Shown piece by piece: positions 5,836-9,209 of a DNA stretch of 11,901 bases. The stretch's first letter is position 1, and each line of letters begins with the position of its first letter. The notes below the pieces were generated by a model, which saw only the letters and a program-made list of their open reading frames with translations, made no database searches and had not been told where the DNA came from. This DNA comes from Actinomycetota bacterium (lineage in GTDB: Bacteria > Actinomycetota > Acidimicrobiia > Acidimicrobiales > UBA8592). A program made the translations under genes and the position numbers. Location: contig PAYW01000022.1 in NCBI GenBank assembly GCA_002715425.1, positions 20,067 through 31,967 on the forward strand, written 5' to 3'.

Positions 5836-6903
5836 ATGGGGTTCACTGCTTTATCTAACCATGTAAACAAAGAAATTGTGGATGCATTCAAAATTGTCTG
5901 GGATTACCTTGGTCGTCCAGGAGCATGGTGGACAGGAACTCAGCGTATTGCTATAGCCCAGCAAGTTCGCAACTCTGCGCCTAGGCCACTATGGGACAGG
6001 CCACCACCATTAGATACACTTTCTGACGAAGCTAATGGTGTATTGACTTTCTTTGAGCTTGGCGTTGTCGAGCGGGTTACCGTTCAACCATCATCGATAA
6101 ATCTCGAAACATATCAACACATCGTCCAAAGAATGGGTCAAGACAAGTACGCAGAGCTAGCGTCAGTTGTCTCACAAATTGTTCCGATTGACCATCTACA
6201 TGATTCGCTTGGCCTCGGCAGAGAAGAGCTGCCGACTCCGATAGAGGGCGATATCACCAGAGAACGCCCAGACGGACTGGTTGCCGGAGTCGGGTTTTTG
6301 CCAACTCTTCCAGCAGAAGGGCTCCCGCATGTAGCAGTCGCACTAAGTCTGGCACTAGCCGATAATGCACGCCGGATGCTTCTCGTACGCGCAATGTACT
6401 CCGGAGACTCATTCGCTGAGATGGTGTGGACGCATAGAAGTTTAAGTCGCCCTCAGGTCGAGCTTGTAGCAGCTCGAACTTCGGCTTTGAATGAGTGCTT
6501 CTATTGAACGAGCGCTCATAGCATGCTACTTAGTTTAAGTAGCGCCGCATCTGAAGTTGAAAGCGACCCCACCTCTATAAACGGGACGATTTCTGCATCC
6601 GACGGCATTCCAGCCGGTCAAGAGCTATTAAATTTCACTGACTCTGTACACCGATTGGATGACTCGTTAGAGCCTCATAGGGCAGCTCTGATTGACACGA
6701 TAGGAGAAGAAGGGATGATTGATGCAGCAGTCATATCCTCAGTCTTTAGAAGTCTAAACATTACTGCAGATAGCTCTGGGATAAGAATAGACGATGATTG
6801 GGAATCTGCGGCAGCTGGATTTGCCGTACAAACTGGAGCGCAAACATATAGAACTTTAGAGAACTCGCCTAAGGTGAAATCAATCTTAGAGGAAGGGGCA
6901 TAA
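5836..6903 (+). CDS. AhpD/CMD-like (alkylhydroperoxidase-related) selenoprotein, UGA-encoded Sec at residue 224
   Basis: Read through the in-frame TGA at 6505-6507, this is one 355-residue protein. The motif across the TGA is N-E-C221-F-Y-U224-T-S-A-H228, which is the CxxCxxxH active site of AhpD/carboxymuconolactone-decarboxylase proteins with selenocysteine in place of the second Cys. C221 is the only Cys in the whole chain. The frame is open on both sides, with 223 codons before and 131 sense codons after. The C-terminal part (about 205-350) is the redox AhpD-like domain. The N-terminal 200 residues look like a related all-helical domain without a CxxC. Family members reduce peroxides or act as thiol-disulfide oxidoreductases; the substrate here is unknown. 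A SECIS-like hairpin follows at 6525-6543. AAGGGG at 5825-5830 is the ribosome binding site. The gene starts 9 bp after the acyl-CoA dehydrogenase and abuts the P450. The alternative, a nonsense mutation, is made unlikely by the motif position and the second case downstream. Confidence 0.9.
6505..6507 (+). other. In-frame UGA read as selenocysteine (AhpD-like protein)
   Basis: TGA replaces the second Cys codon of the CxxCxxxH motif. The upstream reading frame ends E-C-F-Y and the downstream frame continues T-S-A-H-S-M-L-L without any other stop until 6901. The family motif is thus complete only if UGA is decoded as Sec. Confidence 0.9.
6525..6543 (+). promoter_or_regulatory. SECIS-like hairpin for the AhpD-like selenoprotein
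   Basis: GCTACTT (6525-6531) pairs perfectly with AAGTAGC (6537-6543) around the five-base loop AGTTT. A U-G pair (6524, 6544) could extend the stem. The loop starts 24 nt after the UGA and has G as its second base. As I recall the bacterial SECIS model, the loop lies about 16-37 nt after UGA and has a G in its first two positions; this hairpin fits. It would bind SelB carrying Sec-tRNA. Confidence 0.8.
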
Positions 6904-8840: not shown

Positions 8841-8847
8841 AAGGGAG
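8841..8847 (+). promoter_or_regulatory. Ribosome binding site fixing the ArsC-like start upstream of the UGA
   Basis: AAGGGAG lies five bases before ATG 8853. It shows that translation begins upstream of the in-frame TGA at 8886-8888, not at the TTG (8907) that opens the uninterrupted frame. Confidence 0.8.
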
Positions 8848-8852
8848 CACTA

Positions 8853-9209
8853 ATGGCAAATGTAACGATCTATCATAATCCTCATTGAGGTTCTTCACGA
8901 AATGCCTTGGCGGTCGCCGAGGAAATGGGAGTAGAGCATGATGTTGTCCTTTACATAAAGGAGCCACCGGATGAAAAAACCCTTCGAGCTATTGCCGAAG
9001 GACTAGAGGACCCGATTGAAGACCTTGTCAGAAAAGACTCGAAGTTCAAAAAACTAGAATTGAATCCAGACGACTATGTTGGCAATTTGGAAAATGTTGT
9101 CGAAATCCTTGTTAAGCATAAACAACTCCTCCAACGGCCAGTAGTTGTGAAAGGGAAGAAAGCAATCATTGGGCGCCCTAAAGACCGTATAGCAGCATTC
9201 TTATCCTAG
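8853..9209 (+). CDS. ArsC-type arsenate reductase-like selenoprotein, UGA-encoded Sec at residue 12
   Basis: Translated from ATG 8853 through the TGA at 8886-8888, the protein has 118 residues. It begins M-A-N-V-T-I-Y-H-N-P-H-U12-G-S-S-R-N-A-L. This matches the ArsC start of plasmid R773 (T-I-Y-H-N-P-A-C12-G-T-S-R-N), with Sec exactly at catalytic Cys12. The arginines that bind arsenate in that enzyme (R60, R94, R107) have counterparts at R60, R95 (in Q-R-P) and R108 (in G-R-P). The fold is thioredoxin-like. There is no Cys anywhere in the protein, so the selenol must be recycled by an outside thiol such as glutaredoxin or mycoredoxin. A SECIS-like hairpin follows at 8905-8922. No other ars gene is present, so the natural substrate may not be arsenate. 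It lies 39 bp after coaE and 20 bp before the cysQ-like gene. Confidence 0.9.
8886..8888 (+). other. In-frame UGA read as selenocysteine (ArsC-like protein)
   Basis: TGA lies at codon 12, the position of the nucleophilic Cys of ArsC, between N-P-H and G-S-S-R-N-A. The frame is open from the ribosome-binding-site-preceded ATG at 8853 to the TAG at 9207, apart from this codon. Confidence 0.9.
8905..8922 (+). promoter_or_regulatory. SECIS-like hairpin for the ArsC-like selenoprotein
   Basis: CCTTGGC (8905-8911) pairs with GCCGAGG (8916-8922) in a 7-bp stem containing one U-G pair (8908, 8919). The loop is GGTC, starting 23 nt after the UGA, with G in the first two positions. The GGU in the loop recalls the loop of E. 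coli fdhF. Stem length and spacing are nearly the same as for the AhpD-like gene. Confidence 0.8.

Follow-up and report, generated by a model that had tools for sequence, protein, structure and literature searches.

The closest described relatives of the gene studied here are the UxxS 'arsenate reductase' selenoproteins. Zhang et al. (2005, Genome Biol 6:R37; PMC1088965) reported 14 UXXS arsenate reductase selenoproteins with predicted SECIS elements from the Sargasso Sea, and the GOS paper (PLoS Genet 2008; PMC2398784) counted 77 'ArsC 1' sequences of the UxxS form. The family is retained in the consulted passages of a 2022 review (PMC9312934) and of a 2026 review (PMC13188914), the latter calling the functions of such selenoproteins largely uncharacterised. 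A literature search on selenoproteins in Acidimicrobiia listed only papers that are unrelated, judging by their titles and the opening of their abstracts.

Here, a stretch of 11,901 nucleotides (contig PAYW01000022.1, hereafter the window) from the genome of an Acidimicrobiales bacterium with marine actinobacteria among its relatives was analyzed. It almost certainly carries a selenocysteine (Sec)-containing member of the ArsC family (PF03960) in the UxxS form; this confidence applies to the assignment and not to arsenate as the substrate. The features discussed below, each with the evidence it is based on, are:

5836–6903, plus strand: AhpD-related CFYUT-family selenoprotein gene, Sec at TGA 6505–6507 (read-through, NF041238, relatives)
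8841–8847, plus strand: likely ribosome-binding site AAGGGAG, 5 bases ahead of the ATG (read directly)
8853–9209, plus strand: ArsC-family selenoprotein gene, 118 residues, Sec at codon 12, no Cys (frame, profile matches, relatives)
8886–8888, plus strand: TGA codon 12, read as selenocysteine (frame, relatives, machinery co-occurrence)
8905–8922, plus strand: bacterial SECIS-type hairpin, 7-bp stem 8905–8911/8916–8922, loop GGUC 8912–8915 (pairing counts, covariation)

One frame runs from ATG 8853–8855 to TAG 9207–9209 (118 codons). With TGA translated as U, the product begins MANVTIYHNPHUGSSRNAL and contains no Cys among its 118 residues. The initial annotation had proposed the start at ATG 8853 behind AAGGGAG, a TGA at codon 12 of an ArsC frame and a Cys-free protein, and direct reading bears out each of these points. 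Its remark that an automatic call from 8907 misses the active site also holds: the table-11 ORF list offers only a 100-residue piece starting at TTG 8907, with the active site lost.

A search of genome contigs kept 80 of 128 relatives, which, with the locus of the nearest genome (G001), gave a set of 81 whose codon 12 was read via tblastn. All 81 carry TGA at this codon, none carries Cys there, and their products are likewise Cys-free; an identical protein is specified by L001 and L002, and three loci are truncated, L007 and L018 at the 5' end and L006 at the 3' end. The hosts comprise Acidimicrobiia and other Actinomycetota along with Verrucomicrobiota, plus a single Pirellulaceae and one labelled simply 'bacterium'. 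Of 118 sampled genomes from the order, 69 matched the ArsC gene. The 29 TGA-form genomes all have their TGA at codon 12, and the non-TGA matches that span it have Cys (TGC or TGT) in 38 of 38 cases and never Trp; two partial matches end short of it. A lack of residue preference at position 12, which the initial annotation had named as counter-evidence, is thus not what the relatives display, codon 12 being TGA or a Cys codon in all that were read. The Cys form of one genome (G103) branches within the Sec clade beside the Sec form of its own family (forks 97/94 and 91/79), in a tree built from few columns, with bootstrap not settled and deep forks unused. None of tRNA-Sec, selA and selB was seen in G103, where ArsC residue 12 is Cys. 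As a separate observation, two contigs (L110 from G097 and L111 from G055) each hold two TGA-containing ArsC paralogues, the second being a UGKS form that shares about 42% identity with the window protein.

The hairpin CCUUGGC-GGUC-GCCGAGG is separated from the TGA by a 16-base spacer and so opens with the 17th downstream base. It was assessed in 101 distinct TGA sequences, counting identical sequences once and leaving out L007 and L087 (the genome of the latter being present via L023); all 101 entered the synonymous-draw and codon 19/22 counts. Of these, 79 form the full seven-pair stem, versus 2.7 expected when synonymous codons are drawn from the remainder of the same genes, and 89 keep the GGUC loop. 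Among 17 Cys homologues none forms seven pairs, the best being a single sequence with six. At the third positions of codons 19 and 22, where changes are synonymous in most rows, the bases covary (15 AT, 0 AC, 8 GT and 68 GC; p 9e-12, kinship ignored). Covariation in an alignment of 35 sequences exceeded all 500 shuffles and every slid version, these 35 being what remained of 45 diverse picks once ten with fewer than six pairs were left out, a choice that favours structure. Fewer than six of the seven pairs form in 13 of the 101 sequences; five of these have a hairpin shifted by six bases (three with seven pairs, two with six), and the other eight have none at either place. The position of the SECIS thus seems to have shifted within the family. 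In L112, L114, L118, L119 and L120, six or seven pairs (GCAATGC-CGTGC-GCATTGC or near) lie six bases earlier. Folded as a single sequence, 8886–8939 has a z of -1.90. An Rfam scan of the window gave no SECIS family and one sub-threshold sRNA match, and model R1 run over the window found no second good match.

Machinery genes were scored per genome at limits of at least 58 bits for tRNA-Sec, more than 100 bits for SelA and at least 230 bits for SelB. The tRNA-Sec limit was set since a threshold of E up to 1e-3 let through every one of 14 controls, and the SelB limit admits three genomes (G093, G102 and G022) that are all under the curated cut-off. At least one of tRNA-Sec, selA and selB was found in 29 of the 29 TGA-form genomes of the order sample and at least two in 28 of them; the TGA form occurs in none of the 45 genomes of the order with none of the three. 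The exception is G001 (76% complete), which has tRNA-Sec and neither selA nor selB over the limits; all three were seen in G077, G027 and G113 of the same genus. By these limits, G072 is without tRNA-Sec and G100 without selB. SelA was present in 14 of 16 further genomes reached via loci, and in 11 of the 12 non-Acidimicrobiia among them. Genome-wide absence of Sec machinery had been another point named as counter-evidence; in the relatives, the window's genome standing outside this count, the machinery accompanies the gene.

A read-through scan of the window gave 65 candidate TGAs; overlapping genes account for the majority of those that are conserved. TGA 6505 was singled out because two adjacent ORFs, 5836–6507 and 6523–6903, share its frame; it lies within NECFYUTSAH. 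Against NF041238, the profile for alkylhydroperoxidase-related (seleno)protein (cut-off 175), the read-through product reaches 240.7 bits. All 13 locus matches, a single genome having supplied two of them, conserve the TGA. In the fold of 6505–6559, the TGA is followed by a stem whose apex is AGU/GUU, no stabler than shuffles (z -0.07). This second selenoprotein gene supports Sec use in the window's organism. The TGA/Cys exchange, the hairpin, the co-occurrence with machinery and the second selenoprotein gene together make the ArsC-family gene very probably a genuine selenoprotein, and one of no new kind, since the UxxS 'arsenate reductase' was published in 2005 and 2008.

The family assignment was examined with profiles, pairwise matches and structure. 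The window protein reaches 61.3 bits against Pfam ArsC (PF03960), over the gathering cut-off of 24 bits. Among NCBIfam profiles it matches TIGR00014, arsenate reductase (glutaredoxin), best, at 97.9 bits (C for U), below the curated cut-off of 106.05, and 26 of 26 aligned family members match this profile at E up to 1e-3; TIGR01617 gives 48.7 bits, and the NF041106 profile has no match to the protein at E up to 1e-3. In a search of solved structures, phmmer places the Sec opposite the Cys of R773 ArsC (1jzw, 1i9d), which agrees with the proposed Sec at the catalytic Cys position. R60, R95 and R108, for which counterparts had been proposed, are each paired with an arginine of R773 ArsC, which we take to be the arsenate-binding R60, R94 and R107. 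Across 110 Sec and 17 Cys rows (some being one genome twice), these three arginines are kept in every row, and His8 is found in 109 Sec rows, the remaining one being a gap, and in 16 Cys rows. The AlphaFold model (pLDDT 87.3) has an ArsC chain, 3rdw, as its best PDB match (TMq 0.79), and Spx chains fit it as well as ArsC chains do. The earlier reading of the gene as an ArsC-like selenoprotein is supported by these results; that annotation mentioned neither the SECIS hairpin nor the second selenoprotein gene nor the publication of the family in 2005.

We propose that SelB and Sec-tRNA would read the UGA with the aid of the hairpin. The selenolate at residue 12, just past strand 1, would then attack an oxidised substrate, presumably held by His8, Arg60, Arg95 and Arg108. 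Because the protein has no Cys, the Se-adduct would have to be resolved by an outside thiol: thioredoxin, or a low-molecular-weight thiol paired with either glutaredoxin or mycoredoxin. As judged from the sequence, the prediction of a selenol that acts as the nucleophile and relies on an outside thiol for resolution is well founded.

Arsenate as the substrate is the family default and another oxidised substrate a serious alternative, with about even chances; arsenate reduction by the window protein itself is something we infer. That the protein reduces arsenate with glutaredoxin or mycoredoxin as its partner, Sec replacing Cys12, strikes us as a toss-up. The R773 ArsC alignment, the conserved His8 and three arginines, and the rank of TIGR00014 among the NCBIfam matches favour it, although that score is below the cut-off. 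A glutaredoxin-family (PF00462) protein is present in 24 of the 29 TGA-form genomes of the order and in 10 of 10 Verrucomicrobiota genomes searched (34/39), but is absent from G001 and from G077 of the same genus. MshC, the mycothiol marker, reaches at least 400 bits in 28 of the 29 order genomes, with none over the curated cut-off of 485.1. The pump counts are also unfavourable: ArsB at E up to 1e-3 occurs in 0/29 TGA-form genomes versus 27/89 others (p 0.0002, kinship ignored).

The same counts favour an ArsC-fold selenol reductase that does not detoxify arsenate and acts in general redox upkeep on another substrate (a peroxide, a disulfide, or a selenium or sulfur oxyanion), a reading that we place a little short of an even chance. 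Only 28 of the 110 Sec rows have Arg at residue 16, versus 14 of the 17 Cys rows, and Pfam recognised no ars-operon gene among the other genes of the window. Against this, little or no variation is seen at His8 and the three oxyanion-site arginines, and Acr3 alone shows no difference, whether at E up to 1e-3 (6/29 versus 20/89, p 1.0) or over the cut-off (3/29 versus 17/89, p 0.40). The association with pumps depends on the limit chosen: Acr3 over the cut-off or ArsB above 150 bits gives 3/29 versus 29/89 (p 0.029), and any Acr3 or ArsB match at E up to 1e-3 gives 6/29 versus 38/89 (p 0.046), in both cases with kinship ignored. As exits for arsenic, the counts cover ArsB and Acr3, and many of the genomes are incomplete.

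The other genes of the window encode a Rieske oxygenase, two sulphur-transport-like proteins, cupin, ABM, CoA-transferase III, acyl-CoA dehydrogenase, AhpD-related, P450, CoaE, inositol phosphatase family, cold shock, SHOCT-like and luciferase-like proteins, and an MFS protein whose gene is cut by the window end. Beside the ArsC-family gene, such neighbours turn up again only among close kin (CoaE at 14 of the 81 loci, the phosphatase at 15). Seven recurring neighbours of other loci, scanned as single representatives, included no ars gene. At 860–1791 on the plus strand, two adjacent ORFs correspond to halves of Sulf_transp (YeeE-type), the first to the C-terminal part and the second to the N-terminal part.

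Tentatively, and with less confidence than in either substrate reading, we hypothesize that these proteins form a Cys-free, obligate-selenol clade of ArsC-fold reductases that has been transferred among Actinomycetota, Verrucomicrobiota and Planctomycetota. Such a clade would have left arsenic detoxification for another substrate, with Cys returning only where a lineage loses the Sec machinery, as in G103.

Public databases lose such genes through N-terminal truncation or by giving Trp for Sec. Of 17 proteins fetched from public sets (P0002 to P0120), 12 are full-length with W12, presumably from gene calling with TGA as Trp, and five are truncated to 94 or 100 residues. Reassignment of TGA to Trp, which the W12 entries might suggest, is very improbable given Cys in every non-TGA homologue spanning the site, no TGG seen there in DNA homologues, and the Sec machinery of the relatives. 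A pseudogene or sequencing error, with the true start at 8907 or a miscalled Cys codon, would fit the table-11 ORF and the truncated entries, and is equally improbable: the TGA stands in all 81 other loci, the three arginines are kept, the hairpin exceeds codon expectation and the gene co-occurs with Sec machinery, counts that already contradict it, while recurrence of the TGA in separate assemblies excludes the error at 8886–8888 that the initial annotation had considered.

Compared with known systems, the window protein shares with the UxxS 'arsenate reductase' (COG1393/pfam03960) its family name, Pfam family, catalytic-site Sec and a predicted bacterial SECIS. The UxxS motif is common to 'ArsC 1' and the window protein (UGSS), a comparison made by motif and family name with the sequences unaligned. 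The passages of PMC1088965 and PMC2398784 consulted name no host for the published proteins, whereas the present set links the form to Acidimicrobiia and Verrucomicrobiota. 'Arsenate reductase 2' (cd03032; NF041106) is likewise an ArsC-type selenoprotein, but has a UxxC motif. Spx/YffB-type proteins share the fold, with similar TM-scores, and the window sequence scores lower against them (TIGR01617). R773/E. coli ArsC (1i9d, 1jzw) has the fold, nucleophile position, His8 and three arginines in common with the window protein, which differs in having Sec for Cys, about 30% identity, a score below the TIGR00014 cut-off, a variable residue 16 and no recognised ars-operon neighbours. Our results add the Cys-free, Sec-only state in 81 close relatives and the covariation and co-occurrence tests. 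They provide a full-length, well-supported member of a selenoprotein family known, in the cited passages, from sequence only. The named host groups and the natural Cys counterpart in G103 permit a direct test of the benefit of Sec in a one-nucleophile ArsC-type enzyme, and the same material allows the 'arsenate reductase' label to be tested.
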